Source of the DNA: Mesorhizobium zhangyense
GTDB lineage: Bacteria; Pseudomonadota; Alphaproteobacteria; Rhizobiales; Rhizobiaceae
Assembly: GCF_011045115.1 (NCBI RefSeq)
Contig: NZ_JAAKZG010000023.1
Coordinates: forward strand, 1-52,280
Direction: 5' to 3'
DNA: 52,280 nucleotides
Positions 36,320 through 49,867 of the stretch are shown here, one piece after another; position 1 is the stretch's first letter, and every line of letters begins with the position of its first letter. The translations under genes and the position numbers were made by a program. The notes beneath the pieces are model-generated. The model was not told the origin of the DNA and made no database searches. It saw only the letters and a list, made by a program, of their open reading frames with translations.

Positions 36320-39300
36320 TCAATGAAAATCCCTGGTTTTGACCTTGATGGTGTCGATATGGCGGTCCGGAACGTAGATATCCCGGGTACGGATACCCTT
36401 CGACGGCAGATCTCGCGGATCGCGCGTTGGACTTCCGTGATGGAATTCATCGCCTCTGCCATGGGGGAGAGGAAAAGCTGTTTCCCGCTCGCCGACGGTG
36501 GCGAGTTCCTTGGTCAGATCTTTCAGCTGATGGGCGACAAGGTGCACGACTTCCCCCTCGCGCTGGATTCGGCCTTTGACGGCGATCATGGCTCCTGAAA
36601 GCACAATACGACGGAACTTTTCGAAGACCTTCGGCCAGACGACCAGATTGGCGATTCCGGTCTCGTCTTCGAGAGTGATGAACATGACACCTTTAGCGCT
36701 TCCGGGCCGTTGGCGGACCAGGACAATTCCGGCGGCTTCAAGCCAGCGACCGTCGCGGGCGTCCATGGCATCCCGACAAGAGCCGATGCGCTGCCGATGA
36801 AGATACTGGCGCAGGAACGTGACGGGGTGGCTCCGTAATGTCAGGCCGACATGGCCATAGTCCTCTACCACTTCGCCGCCGGCCGTCATGGGGCGTAGTT
36901 GGACCACGGGTTCGGTGATTTCCGGGACGATCTCGGCTTTGAGGCTGCTTGCTGCCGCAAAAAGGGGAAGCGGTTCATCCCGGAGCGCCTTAATCGCCCA
37001 CAGTGCTTCGCGACGGGCAAGGCCCAAGGCAGGGCGAAACGCGTCTGCTTCGGCGAGCTGGACGAGAGATGCTTGAGGAACTGCACCGCGCCGCCAGAGA
37101 TCGTCAACGGAAGCAAATGGTTCGTCAGCGCGCGCAGATACAATTGCCGCGCCATGGAGGTTGGCAAGCCCTTTGACCATCCGCAGGCCGAGACGTACCG
37201 CGAAGCGACCGTCTTTGTCATCGGTGGGTTCAAGGCTGCAGTCCCAGCGCGAAGCGTTGACACAGACGGGACGTATGTCGACGCCGTGGTCGCGTGCATC
37301 GCGCACGATCTGCGCTGGAGCATAAAAACCCATCGGCTGGGAGTTCAAAAGTGCTGCGCAGAATACATCAGGATGCCAGCATTTGAGCCAGGCGCTCGCA
37401 TAGGCGATCAGTGCGAAGGAAGCCGCGTGGCTTTCGGGAAAGCCGTAGGAGCCGAAGCCTTCGAGTTGCTTGAAGGTTTTCTCTGCGAATTCCTGTTCGT
37501 ATCCGTTGGCCACCATACCGGCGATCAATTTTTGACCGAACTTGGAGACGCCTCCAGTGTGTTTGAAGGTCGCCATCGATTTGCGCAGAAGGTCGGCCTC
37601 GCCGGGTGTGAAGCCGGCGCATTCGATGGCAACGCGCATTGCCTGTTCCTGGAACAAGGGAACGCCGAGTGTCTTGCCGAGAACCTTTTCCAGTTCCGGC
37701 TTGGGATAGTGCACAGGTTCCTGACCGTTGCGACGGCGAAGGTAGGGATGAACCATGTCGCCCTGGATCGGACCTGGCCGGACGATCGCAACCTGCACGA
37801 CGAGATCATAATAGGTGCGTGGCTTCAGCCGCGGCAGCATCGACATCTGTGCCCGTGACTCGATCTGGAAGGTGCCCAGTGTGTCGGCCTTGCGGATCAT
37901 CGCATAGGTTCGTGGATCCTCCGCCGGTATCGTCGCCAGATCGAGATTGATGCCTTTATGGTCGCAAAGCATGTCCAGCCCGCGCTTCATGCAGGTCAGC
38001 ATGCCAAGCGCCAGCACGTCGACCTTCATGAATTTCAGCGCCTCGATATCGTCCTTGTCCCACTCGATGACCTGACGATCGACCATGGCGGCGGGCTCGA
38101 TCGGAACCAGATCGTCAAGGCGATCATGGGTGAGCACGAAGCCGCCCGGATGCTGGCTGAGATGGCGTGGTGCACCCATCAGCTGTCGAGCAAGATCCAA
38201 GGTCAGGCGCAGGCGTCGGTCGGCAAGATTGAGGTTCAGGTCTTCGACGTGCTTCGGTTCGACGCCTTCCTCCGACCATCCCCATATCTGTGATGAAAGC
38301 ACCTTGATCAGGTCCTCTGGCAATCCCAGGGCCTTGCCAACATCGCGAAGTGCTCCCTTCGAGCGGTACCGGATGACAGTCGAGCAAAGTGCGGCCCGAT
38401 CGCGGCCGTAGGTGTCGAACACCCACTGCATGACGATCTCACGCCGCTCATGCTCGAAATCGACGTCGATATCGGGCGGCTCATGGCGCTCTTCGGAAAC
38501 GAAGCGCTCGAACAAAAGATCGTTGCGCCCAGGGTCGATCGACGTGATGCCCAGAACGTAACAGACCGCCGAATTGGCGGCTGATCCACGGCCCTGGCAA
38601 AGAATATCCTTGGAACGGGCAAACCGGACGATCGCGTTCACCGTCAGGAAGTATGGTGCGTATTGCAGCTTTGCGATCAGCCGCAGTTCGTGCTCCAGGG
38701 TCTTACGCACGCTGTCGGGCAGGCCTTCCGGATAGCGGCTTGCAGCGCATTCCCATGTCAGTTTCTCCAGGGTTTGCTGGGGCGTGAGGGTCGGGTCGTC
38801 GCGCTCCTCGGGGTATTGATAGGCAAGCTCGTCGAGCGAGAAGCGGCACCGATCCGCAATCTCGATGCTGTTCGCCAAAGCCTCCGGATACCGTGCAAAC
38901 AGCCGATGCATTTCCAGTGGCGGCTTGAGATAGCGGTCGGCGTGCCGTTCGCGCCTGTCGCCGAGCTCGTCGATCGTCACATTATGCCGGATGCAGGTGA
39001 CAACGTCTTGCAGGATACGGCGGTCCGGGACGTGAAACAGGACATCGTTGGTGACAACGCAAGGCATGCCAATGCGACCGGCCATATCTGCCAGGTTATA
39101 GAGGCGGAGCTGGTCGTTTGGTCTGCGCCGCAGGGTGAGGGCAAGGTAAGCTCTGTCACCGAAAGCACCGCGCAGACGCCGGAGCCACATGCCGCAGAGA
39201 TCGTCGGCGTCATTCGGTACAAGTACAGTGATGAGCCCCTCGCCATAGGAGACAAGGTCATCCCACGCCAGAAGACATTTGCCCTTGCCGCCGCGTTTCT

Positions 39301-39598
39301 TACCGAGGGAGAGCAGGCGGCAGAGACGAGAATAGGCAGGTCGATCCATCGGGTAGACAAGCACCGACATACCGTCCGTGAGGTCCAGCCTGCAGCCGAC
39401 GATGAGGCGGATACCTGTAGCCTTGGCCGCCTCATGCGCTCGAACAATGCCCGCAAGCGAATTGCGGTCGACGATACCCAGCGCCTCGATGCCATTTGCT
39501 GCTGCCTCAGCGAAAAGCTCATCGCAGGACGAGGCTCCGCGCAAGAACGAGAAGTGCGACGTGACCTGCAACTCGTTATATCTGAGGGCGGCGTTCAT
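36320..39598 (-). CDS. dnaE2: error-prone DNA polymerase DnaE2 (ImuC)
   Basis: Predicted protein of 1092 residues, a C-family polymerase used for translesion synthesis. It starts with the PHP domain ([10 protein letters not shown]). The catalytic core has [12 protein letters not shown], whose Asp residues bind metal. Gly-Arg-Gly-Ser-Ala-Ala-Asn-Ser, a helix-hairpin-helix region and an OB-type domain near the end follow. Length is normal. The start overlaps the end of imuB (ATGA). It acts with ImuA and ImuB after LexA release and causes damage-induced mutations. Confidence 0.97.
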
Positions 39599-41118
39599 CC
39601 GAAGATGCCGTGCAGGAACCAGCGATGGCTGCCCGTATCGGCATTTTCGCCATCACCGGAGCGGAAAATCCAGTAACGTTCGCCTGCGTCGTCCTCGACC
39701 TGAAAGTAATCCCTGACAGCGATCAGCTCGGCGTCGCGTTTCCACCATTCGCCAAAGACACGCTCGGGTCCGTCGGCGCGGCGCACGCGGCGGCGGATAC
39801 CGCGCCATGTAAAAGAAACAGGAGGATGGTCGGGCAAAAGAGCTACCGTATCGATCGCTTCGGGCTTCGCCAGCAGCCGTGAAGGACGCGGCCAGCACCC
39901 GGGCCAGTTTGCATCGGTCTCCGGGGCCATCGCGGGAATGCGGGCGACAGAGCGTTCCGGGACATCACTGGCAACCGACGTGACACGGAACAGCCTTTGC
40001 TCGCCGACGCGGTTGGTGAGGATATCCACCAGTCCGGAAACATCGGCCACGGGATCGTCGATCAGGCTGGTGGCCTGTTGCTTCTGCTCGAAGGGTTCAA
40101 CTGCCGTCGCGGCAAGCGTTATGATCTCGATGCCAAAGCCTGGCTCAATGGTTTCAATCTTGTCGCAAAGCAGCCGCGTAAGCCGCTTGATGTCACGCAC
40201 CGGCAATGCCGTACCGACGCGAATTGCCTGCACACGATTGTCGACACGATGGCAGACCAGATCGAGGCGGCGTACTCCAACGCCGTGTTCTTCAAGGCGT
40301 TTGCCAAGCTCGACGACAAGCTTGCCGATGTAGCGGGCAATCGTCTCGGCAGCACCGATCGGTTCGGCAAAGGCGCGTCGAACATCGATCATGTCAGGTG
40401 GACGGATCGCATTAATGGGTTCGCGCACGTCCCCGACCGCCTGATCGATGCGACGGCCAAGCTCGGGGCCAAAGCGCAACGTCAGAGGTGCCCGGGGCTG
40501 TGCAAACAGATCTGAGATCGTTCGAAACCCAAGAACCTGCAGGCCTGCGACAGTATCGGATGACAGACGGAGTGCCGCAATCGGCAGCGGGCGGATTGCG
40601 GCCAGGCTCTTGCCGGGTTCGACCACCGAAATGGGTTCGGCCGCGTATCGAGCCGCCGCATGGGCTGCACCCCAGGTGTTCGCGACAGCCGCCCTTGCAG
40701 CAATGCCCGAGCCCGACAGGCGATGAACCATCTCAGTGAGCATTGCCCCTTCGCCGCCATGGAGATGGTCGCTTCCTGTCGTGTCGATGACTATCCCGTC
40801 AGGGGGGTCGGAGGCTACGACGGGTGCATACCGCTGCAACGCCCAGACGGCGAGACGTTCAAGGGCGGCCGCGTCCGCATCCGGGTCGCCATCGAGGACG
40901 AGCAGCCCAGGTACAAGCACCTGAGCCTTGGCAACAGGCATTCCGACGCGCAAGCCCGCGCCATGGGCGACGGCATCGAGTGCCTGCACGATCCGCCTGC
41001 TTCTGTCCCGGCCGACCAAAACCAATGGCTGGTCAGGCGGAGGCGAAGCGTCGCCCGAGTTCCTTCTGATGCGGTCCGTGGGCCAGGTCGGCAGGAACAG
41101 CGAGACGACCCTTGTCAT
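39595..41118 (-). CDS. imuB: ImuB, Y-family polymerase-like mutagenesis protein
   Basis: Predicted protein of 507 residues; the ATG ending at 41118 is used because GGAGGGG lies four bases upstream. It begins [14 protein letters not shown], the usual ImuB start. The fold is that of Y-family polymerases, but the acidic catalytic residues of active enzymes are not evident, as known for ImuB. ImuB links DnaE2 to the β clamp and to ImuA. It overlaps the 3' end of imuA by 86 bases and the start of dnaE2 by four. Confidence 0.93.
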
Positions 41119-41785
41119 CGCACCCCTCCAGCTCGAAATCCGCACTTTCGCCCGCGCGAGCCCGGATCAACTCCACCAGCCAGCGCGCGCGACCCACGCC
41201 AGGAACGGGCAGGGGAGTGGATGGCAGAACAGAGATACGCCACCTCGTGACGGCTGCGGTCGGTTGCCCGAAATCCGCTGCCTCTGTCTGCCGTCGCCAG
41301 CGCCGCAAGGCGATCGCGAGAGTTCCGGATGCTTCCGCCGCAAGCTGAAGTCGCCGCGACGCTGTCATGGAGAGATGCGCGACCTCGGCAATCGCAGCTC
41401 CAAGACCGCCATGACGCAGTCCTTCCTCGAAACAAGCAAGCACTGCTTTTTCGTCTCCGGCTTCGACATAAATCACGCGGTCCGGCGGCAGGCCTGCCTG
41501 GGCCAGGGCAGGCGCAAACAAATCTGGTCTCGTGATGCACCAAAGAATCTTGCCTTTCGTGCGAGCAGCGATACCGGCAACAAACAGCGCGGCCGCCGCG
41601 CCATCGATCGCGCCGTTCCCGCCACCTGCAACCTCGTGAAGGGCTCCAAGAGCCAGCCCGTTTCCGGGCAGACGCGTATCCATTGCTGCGACCCCGAAAG
41701 GAAGCACCGCCTTTGCGCGCTGATTGTTGCCTTCGATATGCCCAATGCTGGCGCGCAAGGATTCCACAGCGGGATTCAGCCGCAC
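41033..41785 (-). CDS. imuA: ImuA, RecA-like mutagenesis protein
   Basis: Predicted protein of 250 residues with a GTG start ending at 41785 (a TTG three bases further upstream is an alternative; no clear ribosome-binding site). It begins Val-Arg-Leu-Asn-Pro-Ala-Val-Glu-Ser-Leu. The segment with Leu-Gly-Ala-Leu-His-Glu-Val-Ala-Gly-Gly-Gly-Asn-Gly is the ImuA counterpart of a degenerate P-loop. It is the first gene of imuA-imuB-dnaE2, expressed from a LexA-controlled promoter about 25 bases upstream. Confidence 0.92.
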   Translation of the reverse strand: MRLNPAVESLRASIGHIEGNNQRAKAVLPFGVAAMDTRLPGNGLALGALHEVAGGGNGAIDGAAAALFVAGIAARTKGKILWCITRPDLFAPALAQAGLPPDRVIYVEAGDEKAVLACFEEGLRHGGLGAAIAEVAHLSMTASRRLQLAAEASGTLAIALRRWRRQTEAADFGQPTAAVTRWRISVLPSTPLPVPGVGRARWLVELIRARAGESADFELEGCDDKGRLAVPADLAHGPHQKELGRRFASA

Positions 41786-41809
41786 CAAAGTTACTCGCTC
41801 AATGTGAAT

Positions 41810-41853
41810 GTTCGCTATTTGTTCTGCTCTTTTCAGAAAAGAGTCAAGAGGGG
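41810..41853 (-). promoter_or_regulatory. SOS promoter of imuA with LexA box GTTC-N7-GTTC
   Basis: GTTC at 41810-41813 and 41821-41824 with a 7-base spacer is a perfect alphaproteobacterial LexA box. Read on the minus strand, TTGACT lies 17 bases before a -10 that overlaps the box. It controls the imu cassette. A neighbouring inverted repeat (CTCTTTT/AAAAGAG, 41826-41842) lies within the promoter. Confidence 0.82.
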
Positions 41854-42097: not shown

Positions 42098-43396
42098 GTG
42101 GCAGACTTCACCTACATGGGCTCGAAAAAGCTCTTGGCGTCCCAAATCGCTGAACTCGTCGCGGACATGGCCGACGGCCCATTTCTCGACCTGTTTTCGG
42201 GCATCGCTGCCGTTGGCTCACAAATTGGCACCCAGCGCTCGATCTGGTCCAATGACGTGCAGAGCTTCTCGACGCTTCTTACCGGCCAGAAGTTTCGTGC
42301 TGCCCGACCGTTCCGAACGGCGCATAGAATCATCGAACGCGCAGAAATACCGTTTGCCGTCAATCGTACAGGGCTTGAAGGAACATTCGGTGAGGCGCTT
42401 GCTAAGGAGGAGCGAGCACTCTCCACCAACGACGCGGAAGGCGCACGTGAGCTCATCGCGACCATGTCGCAAATTGACGAGAAAATCAGCACGCTGCGCC
42501 GCCAGAACGTCCATTGCCTCCTTACCGGCTTACACGGGGCGACCTATCTCGGGATACGCCAGGCAATCGACCTCGATTCGATCCGCTACGCTGCCGACCA
42601 TCTGAGAGACGCAGGCGAGGTGACCACCGAGCAGCATCGCTGGATGGTGTTGGCGTTGTGCCAGACGCTTTCAACGGTCAGCAACTCCACAGGCCATTTT
42701 GCCCAATACTTATTTCCGAGTGAGGCCAATATTCGACGGGTGGTCCGCAAGCGGAGACTGAACTGCTGGTCCATATGGTCTACCGCGCTTCGCGAAAGCC
42801 GTCCGCTTGGCCACGTTGCTTGGCGGCGTGGCAACCGCGTTTTTAAGTCGGATGCCACCACGCTGCTCAAGAAATTATCGAGGAATGTGCGGCAGCCCGC
42901 GGTTATTTACGCAGATCCACCTTATACCAGCGATCAATATTCTCGGTACTACCATGTGCTCGAGAATGCCGTCCTCTACGATTACCCAAAGGTTTCAAGC
43001 AAAGGTCAGTATAGACCCGACCGGTTCACCTCCGGCTTCTCGCTCAAGGCCGGCGTTGACGCCTCCTTCAAAGAGCTAATTTCCGCTGCCGCCAAGCTCC
43101 CATCTGTCTTTGTACTCAGCTACCCCACCAATGGCCTGCTGAAGGACTCGACCGAACGCGTGCTCGAATTGTTAATGGAAGAGTTTGCGCACGTCGATCA
43201 GCCACTTGTCATCCCGCATCTCCATTCAACGATGGGCGGATCAAAAGGTGCGCAGAAGCAAGCAGTCGATGAGAATATTTTTGTCGCCTATCAGGATCCT
43301 CTCGCGCGCTGGCACGGCAAAGATGCCGGCGGAGCACTTGCCTCGCGGCGAACTGGTCTAGCCCCAATCGCCGAGGCGGAGGAGATTGCTACGTGA
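42098..43396 (+). CDS. D12-class DNA adenine methyltransferase, first gene of a putative defence operon
   Basis: Predicted protein of 432 residues. It starts with GTG 42098, giving Val-Ala-Asp-Phe-Thr-Tyr-Met-Gly-Ser-Lys-Lys; ATG 42116 is an alternative. AdoMet-binding motif I is Asp-Leu-Phe-Ser-Gly-Ile-Ala-Ala-Val-Gly (residues 31-40), with Ala where Dam-type enzymes often have Gly. Catalytic motif IV Asp-Pro-Pro-Tyr is at 273-276, followed by Gln-Tyr-Ser-Arg-Tyr-Tyr-His-Val-Leu-Glu. A charged helical insertion lies at about residues 90-135. It should methylate adenine N6 in DNA, as self-marking or as part of the effector. It overlaps the phosphoesterase gene (GTGA). Confidence 0.88.
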   Translation: MADFTYMGSKKLLASQIAELVADMADGPFLDLFSGIAAVGSQIGTQRSIWSNDVQSFSTLLTGQKFRAARPFRTAHRIIERAEIPFAVNRTGLEGTFGEALAKEERALSTNDAEGARELIATMSQIDEKISTLRRQNVHCLLTGLHGATYLGIRQAIDLDSIRYAADHLRDAGEVTTEQHRWMVLALCQTLSTVSNSTGHFAQYLFPSEANIRRVVRKRRLNCWSIWSTALRESRPLGHVAWRRGNRVFKSDATTLLKKLSRNVRQPAVIYADPPYTSDQYSRYYHVLENAVLYDYPKVSSKGQYRPDRFTSGFSLKAGVDASFKELISAAAKLPSVFVLSYPTNGLLKDSTERVLELLMEEFAHVDQPLVIPHLHSTMGGSKGAQKQAVDENIFVAYQDPLARWHGKDAGGALASRRTGLAPIAEAEEIAT

Positions 43397-44598
43397 CAAC
43401 ACGTACGCTTAAGATTGCAGTGGTGAGCGATCTCCACGTGTTCAACGGCTCGTCCGAAGATTCCAAAAGCCCGTCGACGATCGGCACAGCCGATACTCAG
43501 GATGCGCCCGAGCGCCATCCGCTACGCGGCCTTGCCTACATCATCGAACGTGACAAGCTGAGAGCAGACCTGCTGATCTGCCCGGGGGACTTGTCAGACA
43601 AAGCTGATCCAGCGGCGCTGATATTCGCTTGGAACAAACTCAACGAGCTAAAGTATCAGCTAGGAGCCAAGCATCTCCTAGCCACGGCAGGAAATCATGA
43701 CATCGATTCTCGCAACCAGTACGACGATCATGACCCTAAGGGCAATCTTCAATCGTTGGATCCGATGTTTCCGGGCGTTGACGAAGCCCTCTGCGACCGC
43801 TTCTGGTCACGCAATTTCGTAATCGTCGAGCTCGAGGATGTGCGAATCTTACTGCTCAACTCATCCGCGTTCCATGGCTATGGATCGGATGCCAAACCCG
43901 AATTTCGTCAGGGCCGGATCAGCTCGAAGACGATTTCTGCGCTTCGCATGGCGCTCACCAGCGGCGAGAAGCGGATCAACATCCTAGTCTGTCATCATCA
44001 CCCTGTTACGCATAATCCGGTCAATGAAGCGGATTATAGCGAGATGATTGGAGGCGATCGACTGATCGATCTACTCGATTCAGGTGAGTATGGGTCATGG
44101 CTATTGATCCATGGCCACAAGCATTATCCTCGCCTCGCTTATGCCTCTGGCGGCGCATCATCGCCGATCATTTTCTCGGCCGGATCGCTGAGCGCATTCC
44201 TGTACCAAAAGATTGCCAGCCGCGCACGAAATCAGTTCTACCTCATTGAGATCCCAATAGATGATCTCGATGCGTTGGATCTGGATTTGGCCGGAACAGT
44301 CACCGCTTGGGACTGGATTAATATGTCCGGCTGGCAACCTGCGGGCGTCGGCTCAGGCCTGCCGCATCAAGTCGGTTTTGGCTGGCGGGAATCCGCTCGT
44401 ACGATCGCGACGACGATTGCGAAACATCTGGAAGACAAAACAGACGTTATCACCGGCGAGGAGTTGCTTATCGCTATGCCCAGATTGCGCTTCCTGCGCC
44501 CGGAGGAACTTGAAGCCGTTGTGAGGCGATTACGCTCATCACATGGGATTGTAGCTCAACTCAAGGACGGCATGATCCGCGAGGTGGGGCGATCATGA
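43393..44598 (+). CDS. calcineurin-like metallophosphoesterase, second gene of the operon
   Basis: Predicted protein of 401 residues. All metal-ligand motifs are present: Asp-Leu-His (13-15), Gly-Asp (66-67), Gly-Asn-His-Asp (101-104), His-His-His-Pro (202-205) and Gly-His-Lys-His (242-245). The order and spacing fit the CpdA/class III phosphodiesterase type and the Mre11-like superfamily. After the catalytic domain (to about 280) comes a C-terminal extension of about 120 residues with Trp-Asp-Trp-Ile-Asn and a helical, possibly winged-helix end. The substrate could be a nucleotide, DNA or a phosphoester signal. Start and stop overlap neighbours. Confidence 0.9.
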   Translation: MTTRTLKIAVVSDLHVFNGSSEDSKSPSTIGTADTQDAPERHPLRGLAYIIERDKLRADLLICPGDLSDKADPAALIFAWNKLNELKYQLGAKHLLATAGNHDIDSRNQYDDHDPKGNLQSLDPMFPGVDEALCDRFWSRNFVIVELEDVRILLLNSSAFHGYGSDAKPEFRQGRISSKTISALRMALTSGEKRINILVCHHHPVTHNPVNEADYSEMIGGDRLIDLLDSGEYGSWLLIHGHKHYPRLAYASGGASSPIIFSAGSLSAFLYQKIASRARNQFYLIEIPIDDLDALDLDLAGTVTAWDWINMSGWQPAGVGSGLPHQVGFGWRESARTIATTIAKHLEDKTDVITGEELLIAMPRLRFLRPEELEAVVRRLRSSHGIVAQLKDGMIREVGRS

Positions 44599-46481
44599 AT
44601 ACACTCATGTCAGCGCCGAGCGTCTTTGAATCCTTCAATGCTCGCAACCTTGATCCTACCCAGGTCGCGCAACGCTTCATCCCGCCCCGCCAATTCGACG
44701 AACTGATACTCAGAAATCATAGTATCGTGGTCGGACCGCGCGGCAGTGGGAAAACCACGCTGCTAAAGATGCTGCAGCTGCCGGCGCTAGCGTCTTGGAA
44801 GCATCAGGACGCCGATCGCTTTAGAATGAAGATTGACTTCACCGGGGTGTTTGTTGCGGCGGACATCAGCTGGGGTGCGCAACTGACGGCGCTCGGTGAA
44901 GCACGCCTGTCCGATAATCTACGCACGTTGCTCGGCTTCTCGGCCTTCACGACTCATATGTTATCGGCGCTGGTACGCGCGATGAAAGAAGCGATGAGTT
45001 CCGCGATCGCCGAGGTCCCCTCGCTTGCCCGCCTTTATGTTAATCTGGATCGCGAGACTATCGCTGCGCTAGTTCGGTCGCTCGCTAAGGAATGGGAGCT
45101 TACACCCGAACTGCCAACATTGTTTGCGTTGCAGACCGCTCTCCAGGGTCGACTGTCGAGAATCGCACAGATTGCCAACCAGCTGGCGTTGGTCGGCGCG
45201 CACGAGCTTGACCCCAATGCGGCCGAAACACGGTTTCTCTATCTTGACGCGCTGTCGTCGGTGTCCTTCGGAATTGAACAGTTCAATACCTATGCCGACC
45301 AGCCATATCGCAAATGGGCTTTGCTATTCGATGAGCTCGAAATCGCACCCCAGGCAATCCGTCAGGCGCTGCTCAAGGCCTTGCGCAGCACGAACTCGAA
45401 CCTGCTTTTCAAGCTGTCGCTCAGCCCCTACCATCAGGATGCCGGGCTGCTTAACACCGCGATTGCAGCGATGCCAGCGCAGGATTATCAGCCCATCGAA
45501 CTTTGGTATGCACGCAAGGAGCAAGGGTTCCAGTTCTCACGCGCCCTCGTCGAAGCTATGATTGCGGACGCCGGCTGTACCGGTGTCGCTCCGGAAGACA
45601 TCTTTGGCGCCGCCTCGATCGCGATGCGCGAAGAAGCATCAAGCGCGCAGTCATCGGACTACCGCCCAGGAACCGACCTGCACAAACGATACAAGCGACT
45701 GGCCATCAAGGATCCGAGCTTTGCTGCATATATCAGCGAGAACAGGGTCGATCTCGACCGGATGCACGAGCTGCCCTCGGCTGAACGAGCAAGCATCATT
45801 CGCAAGGTCACCTCAATCGTTATGGTGCGCGAAGCCTATCGCTCAGAGCCGCAGGTGATCGGCGGAGGTCAACGGCTCGGCCGCAGCCGCAAGAATGCCA
45901 ACATCTATTACGGCGTCGATGCACTGCTCGCGGTCGTCGAGGGCAATCCGCGCTGGTTGATTGGCCTTATGGGCCCTATGATCAGGCGGTTCAAGGATGA
46001 CGGACAACGCGTGCCGCGTGCCGTCCAAGCAACCGCCATATCGACAGCTGCTAACCGGTTCCGTGCGCTCCTACGCACCATCCCCTATGTACCCGACGGT
46101 ACGAGCCCGTTCCGCCACAAGCAGATGGCATCCCGTGGGTTATTAACGCTGCTGGATGCTCTCGGCACGCGCTTTCGCCGTCACATCATTATCGACGACT
46201 TTTCACCTGATCCGGTGCTGTCCTTCACGGTCGACGCAAATATCTCTGATGGTCTTCTTCTCGCGCTGGGCCGGGCGTTGAACGCCGGTGCGATCATCTT
46301 GGTGCCCGATTCCGGCGCAGAAGCCATTGCTAGCTCCATTCGCGGAAAACGCTTTCGTCTCTCCTACATGCTCGCAACGAGCTACGACCTGCCCTTGCTG
46401 CTTGGGCGCGAGGGCTCAATTCAACGTCTGCTTGCCGACGATCGCGAGAGCTCCGTTCCGCTGTTCGGAGGAGAGCTGTAA
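44595..46481 (+). CDS. P-loop ATPase of ORC/CDC6-like AAA type, third gene of the operon
   Basis: Predicted protein of 628 residues. Walker A is Gly-Pro-Arg-Gly-Ser-Gly-Lys-Thr (47-54), preceded by the entry Phe-Asn-Ala-Arg-Asn-Leu-Asp-Pro. Walker B is Leu-Leu-Phe-Asp-Glu-Leu-Glu (244-250). A segment with Phe-Lys-Leu-Ser-Leu-Ser-Pro-Tyr may supply the sensor. The remaining 350 residues are mostly helical, with basic regions that could bind DNA. It looks like the large 'sensor' ATPases found in defence loci and resembles ORC/CDC6-type AAA proteins. No membrane segments. ATGA overlap with the phosphoesterase. Confidence 0.82.
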   Translation: MNTLMSAPSVFESFNARNLDPTQVAQRFIPPRQFDELILRNHSIVVGPRGSGKTTLLKMLQLPALASWKHQDADRFRMKIDFTGVFVAADISWGAQLTALGEARLSDNLRTLLGFSAFTTHMLSALVRAMKEAMSSAIAEVPSLARLYVNLDRETIAALVRSLAKEWELTPELPTLFALQTALQGRLSRIAQIANQLALVGAHELDPNAAETRFLYLDALSSVSFGIEQFNTYADQPYRKWALLFDELEIAPQAIRQALLKALRSTNSNLLFKLSLSPYHQDAGLLNTAIAAMPAQDYQPIELWYARKEQGFQFSRALVEAMIADAGCTGVAPEDIFGAASIAMREEASSAQSSDYRPGTDLHKRYKRLAIKDPSFAAYISENRVDLDRMHELPSAERASIIRKVTSIVMVREAYRSEPQVIGGGQRLGRSRKNANIYYGVDALLAVVEGNPRWLIGLMGPMIRRFKDDGQRVPRAVQATAISTAANRFRALLRTIPYVPDGTSPFRHKQMASRGLLTLLDALGTRFRRHIIIDDFSPDPVLSFTVDANISDGLLLALGRALNAGAIILVPDSGAEAIASSIRGKRFRLSYMLATSYDLPLLLGREGSIQRLLADDRESSVPLFGGEL

Positions 46482-47431
46482 TGCTCGGCATAGAAGTTAT
46501 CGGAGACGGATCGTTGAATGACCGGTTCGATTTGTTCATCGGAACACTCGGCTATGAGACTAGGTCCAGCTATCTCGCTCGACACGACCTGATAAATGCG
46601 AACCGGAAGATCGCGCTAGCATTTCCTGAGGAGGATTACGCCGCATATTTGAGCAACCGTGACTTTCTTATCAGCAAACAATTCGAGATTTTGCCAAAGG
46701 ACTCCGGTACGCTCCCACAACTTTTAGCTACGGCAATAGAGAACCGCCCTGCCGACGCAGAACGAGATTTCTCTATTCTCGTCGATATATCATCTATGTC
46801 ACGCCCCATGCTTGCTGATATCGTATTTGAGTTGAGCATGCTCGAACGCGCGGTCAGTGTAACTGTCACATTCGTCTACCTCCCCGCAGAATTCGTCAAG
46901 GAGAACGCCGAGCACGCACCAGTTGCGGTGACGGAGCCTGTCACGTCCGATTATGCAGGTTGGACCGCAACTCCTGAGCGCCCGATCACAGCCCTGGTTG
47001 GCTTGGGCTACGAACATGACCTCGCACTTGGCACCATCGAGTACCTTGAGCCTACCAACGTCTGGGTTTTCGTTCCGAGAGGAGAGGATCGACGGTATGA
47101 CGACGCCGTCAATCAGGCAAATCGTAATCTCAAGGAAATGCTCAGGGACGAGCGTGTGATGAACTACCACGTGGACGCGCCAGCACGAGTCCACGCCATA
47201 CTTGAAAACCTTGTGTTCGGCCTACTCCAATCCTCCCGGCCGGTTCTCGTTCCATTTGGCCCGAAGATATTCTGCTTATGTTGTTTACTTATTGCCCGGA
47301 CCTACGAGCCAGAGATTACGGTGTGGCGCGTGAGTGGTGAAACATTCGCCAAACCCGGTGATCGGAAAGCTAGCGGCAAGATCGTCACATTGCAGACCCG
47401 TTTCGCACTTCACCCGCCAATTACGCAATGA
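46481..47431 (+). CDS. unknown protein with two similar halves, last gene of the operon
   Basis: Predicted protein of 316 residues starting at ATG 46481, overlapping the ATPase stop (TAATG). The N-terminal half has Phe-Ile-Gly-Thr-Leu-Gly-Tyr-Glu-Thr-Arg-Ser and Leu-Val-Asp-Ile-Ser-Ser-Met-Ser-Arg-Pro-Met. The C-terminal half has the matching Leu-Val-Gly-Leu-Gly-Tyr-Glu-His-Asp and Leu-Val-Pro-Phe-Gly-Pro-Lys-Ile-Phe. Strand-glycine-rich-turn-helix patterns suggest two Rossmann-like domains from an internal duplication. Asp-Ile-Ser-Ser-Met-Ser is reminiscent of the Asp-x-Thr-Gly-Gly-Thr loop of CARF domains, but that is weak. Not recognised; could sense a nucleotide or act as effector. Confidence 0.75.
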   Translation: MLGIEVIGDGSLNDRFDLFIGTLGYETRSSYLARHDLINANRKIALAFPEEDYAAYLSNRDFLISKQFEILPKDSGTLPQLLATAIENRPADAERDFSILVDISSMSRPMLADIVFELSMLERAVSVTVTFVYLPAEFVKENAEHAPVAVTEPVTSDYAGWTATPERPITALVGLGYEHDLALGTIEYLEPTNVWVFVPRGEDRRYDDAVNQANRNLKEMLRDERVMNYHVDAPARVHAILENLVFGLLQSSRPVLVPFGPKIFCLCCLLIARTYEPEITVWRVSGETFAKPGDRKASGKIVTLQTRFALHPPITQ

Positions 47432-47631: not shown

Positions 47632-48630
47632 TCAGCCGCCGGTCTCGCTCCATCGTGGACATGTCACGTGTTCTCCCCCACGCGAGTAGTAATGACACTT
47701 CCCGTGGTTGCGGCACCCATTCTCCGGCTCAACAAGGAAGCGGGGATTAGCAATGAGGTCGCGACAGAACCCAATATGCGCATTCTGCGGCAACTCTGAA
47801 GTCCTTTGAGCGATACGGCCTGAGACTATGAAGCGCCGCGTCGGATGGCGCTGAGCGACATCAATGCTATCTCGAAAGCGCGCGATCGTGATCTCAGGTC
47901 GGGCCGGATAAATGAGCCTCTTGTCGACATTGTAGAATCCAGAGGAGAGGTCAATGAAATCGAACGGCAGTGCGGCGATGCGGTCTTGGAACGCTGAGGC
48001 ACCGGACGCGTCGAATTGGATATCGCCGGTCCGCATCGAGACCCGGATTGAGCTCTCGACGCCCTGCGCGCGTAGCCACTCAGCCAGTCTTCCTAGCCTG
48101 TCTTCGACTTGGCTCGCGGCGGGATTGATCCGCTCGTCTACGAGAAGGTTAAGCAAGTAACCGTGGGCCGCATGGACCTGAACGTGACTGAAGCCATGCT
48201 CAATGGCGATGGCCGCTGCGGCCCCGAAGTAGTCGAGGACGCGGTCAGCCCCTTGACGTCCAAGCGAGCGGACGAATTCTCTCGCGCGCCCTATCACTTG
48301 GGCGGTGTCAGCCGATCGAAACTTCCGGGCGCCTTCGTAGCCCTCCCATGTTGTTGCCAGCTGAATACCCGGGAGCGATCCACGCTCGCGTATCGCGCCA
48401 GCTAAGTGCGCCCAAATCGGGTTTGATCCAATAGATGGCGTCGAACGGTTGCTCGCGTGACCTCCGGGAACGACCACGTTGCCAACGATGGCGCAGTGAA
48501 GATCAGCTGAGCTTCGCTGGCTGTAGAAATCGACGTACCGCGCGTCCGGTTCCCCGTCAGTCACGAAGCCTGTGTTCACCCCGAGCAAGAAGACGAGCTT
48601 ATCGCTCCAGCTTGCGGTAGCGGTCGTCAT
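47632..48630 (-). CDS. OYE-like flavin oxidoreductase
   Basis: Predicted protein of 332 residues. It carries His-Ala-Ala-His-Gly-Tyr-Leu-Leu-Asn, the OYE-family active-site strand and FMN/substrate region. Leu-Asp-Tyr-Phe-Gly precedes it, and Phe-Cys-Arg-Asp-Leu-Ile-Ala-Asn-Pro follows for the phosphate end of FMN. The C-terminus has Cys-Arg-Asn-His-Gly-Lys-Cys and a third Cys, possibly a metal or iron-sulphur site. The start overlaps the MazG-like gene by 32 bases. A redox step on a nucleotide or cofactor is possible given its neighbours, but the substrate is unknown. Confidence 0.78.
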   Translation of the reverse strand: MTTATASWSDKLVFLLGVNTGFVTDGEPDARYVDFYSQRSSADLHCAIVGNVVVPGGHASNRSTPSIGSNPIWAHLAGAIRERGSLPGIQLATTWEGYEGARKFRSADTAQVIGRAREFVRSLGRQGADRVLDYFGAAAAIAIEHGFSHVQVHAAHGYLLNLLVDERINPAASQVEDRLGRLAEWLRAQGVESSIRVSMRTGDIQFDASGASAFQDRIAALPFDFIDLSSGFYNVDKRLIYPARPEITIARFRDSIDVAQRHPTRRFIVSGRIAQRTSELPQNAHIGFCRDLIANPRFLVEPENGCRNHGKCHYYSRGGEHVTCPRWSETGG

Positions 48631-48952
48631 TTATGTCCATCTTGGAAAGAATGTCTCGCTCCAGGTCGCCGCCGAGGATGGTCGAGAGACGGAAAAGATA
48701 GATTGCGGCATCGGCTAGCTCCTCGCGTAGGTGCGGTGCAGCCTCCCCGAGGCTTGGACCTGTGTACTTCGGATTGTTCAGACGGAGACCTACTTTCTTG
48801 AGTTCGTTCGCGAACTCCCCTATCTCGCCTATAAGGCCGACGAGGTCGCGAACGAGTTGATCGTGCCGTTCAGCGTCGGAGCCGAAGTGAACCGGGAATC
48901 CTCGCCGCTCGTCAGCGCCGATCTGCCGGGCAACGATCGCAGAAAAATCCAT
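48599..48952 (-). CDS. MazG-like nucleotide pyrophosphohydrolase
   Basis: Predicted protein of 117 residues starting at the ATG that overlaps the upstream stop (TGATG). The metal-binding motif is visible as Gly-Glu-Ile-Gly-Glu-Phe-Ala-Asn-Glu, then Glu-Glu-Leu-Ala-Asp-Ala about 25 residues later, the EExxE...ExxD layout of all-α NTP pyrophosphatases. It ends with Lys-Met-Asp-Ile-Asn-Asp-Asp-Arg-Tyr, as in single-domain MazG proteins. It would hydrolyse (d)NTPs to NMP and PPi; the specific base is unknown. Confidence 0.85.
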   Translation of the reverse strand: MDFSAIVARQIGADERRGFPVHFGSDAERHDQLVRDLVGLIGEIGEFANELKKVGLRLNNPKYTGPSLGEAAPHLREELADAAIYLFRLSTILGGDLERDILSKMDINDDRYRKLER

Positions 48953-49728
48953 CACCTATTCCTTCCCAGCAGATTGATCGTCAGCGATCCTAAGCTGATT
49001 ATCGACGCGGCCACGAGGCTTACAACGACGCCTATCATGCCGTCGACAAGCCATTTTTCCATCACGAAGATCGCGAATGAGTTGATGATGATGGCGATAA
49101 CCAGTCCGATGTTCGTCCATAGCTGTGTCATTTCCATGCGGCGTATTACAGTTCGTGTCGCTGCTGGAAGCAGGGCGAGGCTCTCCTGCTTTTCGGACAA
49201 CACGCGTCGATCATCGGCGACCTCACTGTGAGTCTTCTGAAGGTGCGTCTTGATAGGCCAGATGCCAAGCTGAAAACCGTGCTGCCCCTCGTAGAGCCTC
49301 GTGGCCGGACTCGAAAGCCTGGTGAAATCTGCCTTGGCGATGGGCTCGCCCTGGGGCAGCTCGACATACTTGTCGCTAATGTTCTGGGTCACGATTCCCA
49401 GGTTCCCTTTGAAGCCTGGATCGGCGTAGGTCGCGACCGGACTGAGGCCGACGCTGAAGAGGGATCCCTTGCTGACCACGCGGACTAGAATATGTGCGGG
49501 GGTGTCAAGTTCCTCCGCAGTGATCAGGACGACCCGATGCCCCGGCTTTATCAACACGTTTTCGCCCGGTTTCAGCTGAAAGCGCGTGCCATTCTCAGTA
49601 AGGTCGTAGTACACGCTTCCAAGCCGGAGCTCGTAGCAGGCGCCATCTAGCATGTCCGGGTCCGCATTCCGGATCAACCTTCCGGCATCAACTTCGGTCT
49701 TTATCTCGTTATCGCTGAGCGTGGTCAT
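48952..49728 (-). CDS. membrane-anchored dCTP deaminase/dUTPase-like protein
   Basis: Predicted protein of 258 residues; the ATG ending at 49728 has GGGGG upstream. Residues 1-165 form a Dcd/dUTPase fold: Leu-Ser-Asp-Asn-Glu-Ile at the start, Leu-Asp-Gly-Ala-Cys-Tyr-Glu-Leu-Arg-Leu-Gly, Lys-Gly-Ser-Leu and Ala-Asp-Pro-Gly-Phe-Lys-Gly. Where E. coli Dcd has catalytic Glu138 the by-eye alignment gives Val, and Arg110 in Arg-Ser-Ser is not kept. The last 60 residues hold two membrane helices (about 200-225 and 230-250) with a Trp-Leu-Val-Asp-Gly turn. It may be an inactive or altered nucleotide-binding membrane protein. First gene of its operon. Confidence 0.78.
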   Translation of the reverse strand: MTTLSDNEIKTEVDAGRLIRNADPDMLDGACYELRLGSVYYDLTENGTRFQLKPGENVLIKPGHRVVLITAEELDTPAHILVRVVSKGSLFSVGLSPVATYADPGFKGNLGIVTQNISDKYVELPQGEPIAKADFTRLSSPATRLYEGQHGFQLGIWPIKTHLQKTHSEVADDRRVLSEKQESLALLPAATRTVIRRMEMTQLWTNIGLVIAIIINSFAIFVMEKWLVDGMIGVVVSLVAASIISLGSLTINLLGRNR

Positions 49729-49867
49729 GTTGCCCCCATTCATGTTAGAGACATTGCATCTTCTAGACTGCAATTGAAACCCTGCGAGACGATGCTGGCG
49801 GAGTCTTCGCTATGTCGGCTGCGGTCGACGAGGTCATCAGCAATCATGATACGGCGACCGTCAGAAG

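Follow-up and report, generated by a model that had tools for sequence, protein, structure and literature searches.

The window analysed here is the whole 52,280-nt stretch of Mesorhizobium zhangyense contig NZ_JAAKZG010000023.1, and we focused on an operon of four genes at 42098..47431.

42098..43396, plus strand: D12 class N6-adenine DNA methyltransferase, 432 aa, long non-Dam subtype, with a GTG start and a DPPY motif (MethyltransfD12)
43393..44598, plus strand: calcineurin-like metallophosphoesterase (hereafter, MPP) with a C-terminal winged helix, 401 aa, predicted effector (Metallophos, wHTH-Calcineurin_assc)
44595..46481, plus strand: ORC/CDC6-like AAA+ ATPase, 628 aa (ORC-CDC6-like, Walker residues)
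46481..47431, plus strand: CARF6 family protein, 316 aa, with two Rossmann-like halves and a GPK motif (K262), predicted nucleotide sensor (PADLOC and structural model)

All three junctions overlap (GTGA, ATGA and TAATG), and these coordinates and junctions confirmed those of an earlier note made from the DNA alone (hereafter, the sequence-only reading). The D12 methyltransferase, calcineurin-type phosphoesterase and 628-residue ATPase named there were all recovered as Pfam families. The methyltransferase matched MethyltransfD12 (E 2.7e-12), which places a DNA methyltransferase in the operon, and MPP matched Metallophos (2.5e-10) and, at its C-terminus, wHTH-Calcineurin_assc (6.9e-16). The ATPase matched ORC-CDC6-like (PF24389) over nearly its full length (1.3e-142; 476.9 bits vs a cut-off of 27), with Walker A (GPRGSGKT, 47-54) and Walker B (DELE, 246-249) both intact; it is the one match to the operon ATPase in its own genome. 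The fourth protein, described earlier as an unknown, duplicated Rossmann-like protein, had no match in the Pfam scan and is no longer unknown, being a full-length member of the PADLOC family CARF6 (E 1.4e-58, residues 12-308 of 316 on profile positions 15-295 of 297). Its duplication was borne out by the structural model (predicted local distance difference test score, pLDDT, of 93), which has two Rossmann-like alpha/beta halves with an LGYE motif in each.

To seek conservation of the operon we considered 80 loci with the ATPase (given as L numbers; L003 and L067 are the same locus and were counted once). MPP lay just upstream and CARF6 just downstream of the ATPase on the same strand in 73 of the 80, from Pseudomonadota, Actinomycetota, Bacteroidota, Acidobacteriota, Verrucomicrobiota, Planctomycetota and Gemmatimonadota, so the gene order that the sequence-only reading had asked to be looked for in other genomes was found. 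Four of the seven exceptions are cut contigs (L090, L101, L110 and L111; in L101 the ATPase is also split and is followed by CARF6), and a fifth is a 3-kb contig with a methyltransferase fragment adjoining the ATPase and no phosphoesterase (L099). In the remaining two, which are divergent, the place of the phosphoesterase is taken by PRTase-CE (L036) or DruA (L041). The operon is thus real and conserved. Among the divergent ATPase-CARF6 pairs, L036 has an N6-methylase besides PRTase-CE, L038 has pieces of an N6/Eco57I-like methylase upstream, and the ATPase protein of L041, next to DruA, has a kinase-like part.

The family is rare. A scan of the genome_contigs set with the ATPase alignment found at least 70 loci in several phyla (a lower bound, as the scan is pattern-based), and the same set scanned with protein 4 alone gave nothing. 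On plasmids, tblastn found the ATPase in five records, with the CARF6 gene adjoining in all five (regions inspected for four). The operon was not matched in the 'phages' set or, by the pattern-based scan, in viral_contigs, and a megablast search of E. coli genomes returned nothing closely matching. Among 397 other genomes sampled evenly across the phylum there was no ATPase match at E 1e-20, in a search that scored three candidates per genome and misses divergent members; one genome of that sample, G030, has an ORC-CDC6-like protein by Pfam (1.3e-126).

A D12 methyltransferase stands directly upstream of the three-gene core (MPP, ATPase and CARF6; the upstream position is hereafter slot 1) in 55 loci, of which 52 have a Dam-like enzyme (one a duplicate record) and three the long type. 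The motif NG[LVMI]xRx[NR] is kept in 50 of the 52, and in the PDB the Dam-like enzyme from L060 comes closest to two GATC enzymes, DpnM and E. coli Dam. Based on open reading frames taken from their first start, the methyltransferase overlaps the core by 4 nt in 12 loci, and in three others (L089, L095 and L109) it is relocated to within 2.4 kb of the core. Among the loci examined the long type occurs only in the window, L043 and L044, which form one clade nested inside the Dam-like members of the ATPase tree, indicating that the long enzyme replaced a Dam-like one once. With the methyltransferase exchanged, the site of the window's member may differ from GATC. A PDB search with the long enzyme gave no match, and its remote relatives ('ulcer associated' and LlaI methylases; 22-33% identity) are too distant to name a site. 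The slot 1 protein of the plasmid record L005 is of another kind, a 614-aa protein (L005:3901-5745) without a match above any Pfam cut-off, whose C-terminal EAK motif is by eye reminiscent of PD-(D/E)xK nucleases.

To profile the methylation background of the hosts, their genomes were searched with the Dam family TIGR00571, with a match of 277 bits or more called strong; matches were assigned to the operon or to elsewhere by coordinates if there were several, otherwise the sole match was taken. All 14 genomes whose core lacks a methyltransferase (L046, L047, L075, L081, L082, L083, L087, L091, L092, L093, L102 and L119-L121) have a strong, E. coli-type Dam elsewhere (277 to 319 bits), against one (L104) of the 54 with a linked methyltransferase, a set that includes the genome of the window. 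At the curated cut-off, 3 of the 54 have one (L104, L096 and the borderline L058). Fisher's test gave 1e-13 (6e-12 at the family cut-off) for rows that are related by descent; the label changed 6 to 7 times on the ATPase tree, and the 5-6 independent pairs had the expected direction in nearly all random pairings. As background, a strong Dam occurs in 5 of 100 further genomes from the order of L102 and in 7 of 99 from that of L046. Within the order to which the Vibrio locus belongs, the ATPase is present (E 1e-20) in 6 of 394 genomes, all six of them lacking the operon methyltransferase. We refer to this pattern, in which cores without a methyltransferase sit in genomes with a strong Dam, as the Dam rule.

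Some assignments bear on these counts. L102 has two strong Dam genes, one of them on the opposite strand some 3 kb upstream, and was scored as lacking the methyltransferase all the same; the visible sequence upstream of the core is limited to 495 nt in L083 and 641 nt in L091; and without the divergent L120 and L121 the count is 12 of 12. The comparison of 14 vs 54 left out L048 (slot 1 past the contig end; one Dam-family match of 242 bits), L099 (the 3-kb contig; only a 56-bit Dam fragment), L101 (cut; Dam-family matches of 229 and 183 bits), L111, L085, L090, L110, the plasmid records L002, L004 and L005, and the divergent L036 and L038-L042. In L111 the frame of the operon methyltransferase has an in-frame stop and another Dam-like gene (174 bits) lies elsewhere in the genome; the stop could stem from an error in assembly or from the decay of an enzyme that had become dispensable.

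Taken together, we consider the four genes to be probably a defence operon with the logic of restriction-modification, in which the methyltransferase would mark self and the three-gene core would act on unmarked DNA. The methyltransferase, whose family is evident and whose role is predicted, would mark adenine at the site of the system on the host chromosome; for the Dam-like members GATC is the most likely site, as the operon enzyme seems replaceable by host Dam. The core would recognise DNA without the mark, and recognition should reside there, because the core occurs without the operon methyltransferase. The ATPase may assemble on DNA or travel along it, and together with a nucleotide-type ligand read by CARF6 it may switch on MPP, which would then destroy DNA or nucleotides. 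The Dam rule can accommodate the proposal in the sequence-only reading that the ATPase senses foreign or unmodified DNA, although it does not single out the sensing subunit.

In alignments of sequences picked by length and E < 1e-50 (the duplicate L067 included), G47, G52, K53, T54, D246 and E247 of the ATPase are invariant in 73/73, as are D13, H15, D66, N101, H201, H242 and H244 of MPP, which include the metal ligands, and D102, Y133, G176, G260 and K262 of CARF6. Of the last, D102, Y133 and K262 are candidate residues for binding or cleavage of a nucleotide ligand.

Several results weigh against the restriction-modification logic. No restriction endonuclease family was found among the four proteins (PADLOC, Pfam and NCBIfam). 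The sign test on the independent pairs gave a median of 0.0625, the pairs being too few for 0.05, and at least 7 of the 14 genomes without an operon methyltransferase belong to the SeqA/Dam clade. Of 50 genomes tested for SeqA, seven have it, every one of them without the methyltransferase; the test covered all of the 14 save L119-L121, and SeqA was absent in L046 (Acidobacteriota), L047 and L102 (Bacteroidota), and L081. In the divergent L039 and L040, MPP, ATPase and CARF6 are present, but no methyltransferase was recognised in the examined stretch and no Dam exceeded the cut-off; as their matches to the family profiles are weak, the Dam rule may be confined to the main family. Among the loci left out, no Dam-family match was found for L085 (slot 1 not visible, 1.3-Mb assembly) or L090 (contig cut at the ATPase, metagenome-assembled genome), and L110 (slot 1 methyltransferase of 198 bits, ATPase cut) has two extra matches over the cut-off (122 and 118 bits), which counts against the rule if the family cut-off is applied but not with the 277-bit threshold. 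The genomes of the window, L043 and L044 have no Dam-family match, and the GATC claim is not transferable to the window. Lastly, the first-ranked Foldseek match of the CARF6 model, just above Cap5, is a potassium-chloride transporter (1.8e-4, probability 0.66).

In that search, in which only three rows reached 0.001, rank 2 was the CBASS protein Cap5 (2.5e-4, probability 1.00, TM 0.40), and the CARF proteins Csm6, Can1, Cam1, Can2 and Csa3 came next with high probability and E > 0.001. From these modest scores and the PADLOC match, we take the modelled fold of protein 4 to be CARF/SAVED-like, which supports the sensor role that had been suggested for it. The model of MPP (pLDDT 92.5) is nearest to Rv0805 (ranks 1-4), Lmo2642, SMPDL3B/A (SMPDL3A from rank 9) and GpdQ, followed by purple acid phosphatases; Mre11 does not appear before rank 33. 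A plain Mre11/SbcD nuclease is not favoured, as Rv0805/SMPDL3A-type matches rank first, and the model leans towards a phosphodiesterase acting on small nucleotides, while the winged helix suggests contact with DNA. In L071 a second calcineurin-type phosphoesterase gene lies immediately 3' of CARF6 (L071:11810-12682).

These structures bear on a less likely reading, to which we still give some weight, in which the core is a nucleotide-signalling module of abortive type. MPP would hydrolyse a cyclic or free nucleotide that CARF6 binds, and the methyltransferase would tune or guard the module without classical DNA restriction, loss of methylation being the signal of phage takeover. Such a module would fit the likeness of MPP to cyclic-nucleotide-type phosphodiesterases, the fold of protein 4, and the replacement of MPP by PRTase-CE or DruA in divergent relatives; however, none of the operon proteins was recognised as a cyclase, MPP has its winged helix, and the pattern of Dam occurrence speaks for a site in DNA. 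The methyltransferase could also be a passenger, an anti-restriction enzyme shielding a mobile element from GATC-cutting hosts and dispensable in Dam hosts, with the core as a separate defence module. Its absence from Dam hosts is predicted here too and some loci are plasmid-borne or near integrases, but the enzyme stays with the core across several phyla and in varied surroundings, overlaps it by 4 nt in 12 loci and, where relocated, remains close by, which makes this account improbable. A cassette for DNA repair or replication control via the ATPase and phosphoesterase, which would suit the imuA-imuB-dnaE2-like genes adjoining the window operon and the repair roles known for ORC/CDC6 and Mre11-type folds, is very improbable given the patchy distribution (0/397, with divergent members missed), the plasmid locations, CARF6 and some defence-type neighbours.

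Within the restriction-modification logic, a more specific version can be put forward tentatively, and we regard it as possible rather than likely: restriction of a new type, in which the ATPase would read methylation, the CARF-type sensor would relay it to the MPP effector, and host Dam could be borrowed as the modification enzyme. If true, this would join restriction-modification to nucleotide signalling. The restriction-modification logic in general would give the CARF6 proteins and the Pfam ORC-CDC6-like family a function, and would represent a defence system able to dispense with a modification enzyme in hosts that provide the mark themselves. What was a vague candidate is now testable, as dam-plus cells should tolerate a core without methyltransferase, whereas in dam-minus cells it should restrict or kill.

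The defence-type module outside the named systems that the sequence-only reading had proposed is supported by the gene order kept across phyla, by matches to defence and conflict libraries, and by the absence of the set from PADLOC systems. The operon resembles type II restriction-modification of the DpnII/Dam (GATC) kind in its D12 adenine methyltransferase, the Dam-like member being nearest DpnM and E. coli Dam, and in methylation that host Dam seems able to replace, but it has the three-gene core in place of a restriction endonuclease. With BREX it shares an adenine methyltransferase, an ATPase of the ORC/Cdc6 clade, a phosphoesterase and no obvious nuclease. PglZ, a protein of alkaline-phosphatase fold, is the phosphoesterase counterpart there, whereas the operon has a calcineurin-type enzyme. 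Membership in BREX was rejected, as none of the four proteins matched PglZ, BrxC/BrxB or another BREX family (PADLOC, Pfam). BrxC is assigned to the ORC/Cdc6 clade in the available part of PMC12839542, and defence by type I BREX requires the methyltransferase according to the available part of PMC11842806, whereas the core here also occurs without one.

The metallophosphatase domain of MPP is distantly related to DS-9A (47.7 bits, 1e-12 for the window; 3.9e-22 for L082) of the DefensePredictor systems DS-9 and DS-8. In the available part of PMC13092281, DS-9 is a metallophosphatase with a HAD phosphatase, the catalytic residues of DS-9A are required for defence, and DS-8 carries a NACHT domain. 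The operon is not DS-9, given the DS9_1 cut-off of 420 bits and no HAD match among the four proteins. The window ATPase is weakly like mad8 (2.5e-7) and mad3 (0.038) of MADS, and a MAD6-like kinase part (4.1e-14) occurs in the ATPase protein of L041; none of the other three proteins of the window operon matched a MADS family.

The single families are already named, protein 4 by PADLOC, which lists CARF6 as a protein and in which no system of these four genes was seen, and others by Pfam, whose ORC-CDC6-like, wHTH-Calcineurin_assc and PRTase-CE have matches above cut-off in the operon family and its divergent relatives. 'Undescribed', as the sequence-only reading had it, was therefore too strong, the parts having been noticed by others before. 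The source paper of the three Pfam families is presumably Burroughs and Aravind 2020, and priority for the three-gene core may lie with such source papers of the family names. The four-gene combination and the Dam rule were not found in the open-licence literature searched, and the operon is not described in the available parts of PMC10853773, PMC12839542, PMC7159879, PMC11090510, PMC13092281 and PMC11842806.

The surroundings of the operon in the window include the following genes.

36320-41788, minus strand: imuA-imuB-dnaE2-like SOS mutasome genes, upstream of the operon (named by eye)
47632-49773, minus strand: three overlapping genes, dCTP-deaminase-like, MazG-like and FMN-oxidoreductase-like (Pfam)
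50401-51210, minus strand: SRAP-type protein (Pfam)
51792-52277, minus strand: integrase fragment near the window end (Pfam), in agreement with the integrase noticed earlier

A GTTC-N7-GTTC box at 41810-41824 resembles an alphaproteobacterial LexA box; the window has 3 matches to this pattern vs 1.85 expected, which is not significant. Across the loci, 105 of 109 neighbouring proteins were scanned, at most two per locus. Among 25 of the 78 PADLOC families matched, PbeA had three members, type IV restriction enzymes, type I restriction enzymes and Aga-SIR2 two each, and AbiEi and HEC-06 one each, counts that stand without a control set; the Pfam scan of these neighbours showed housekeeping genes too. 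The trio of deaminase, MazG and oxidoreductase may be a separate nucleotide-pool defence cassette. It also follows the operon in S. meliloti (L002) and apparently in R. herbae (L060), and in Rhizobium beringeri (L122) the deaminase-like gene and two following genes adjoin an AAA ATPase/UvrD helicase pair.

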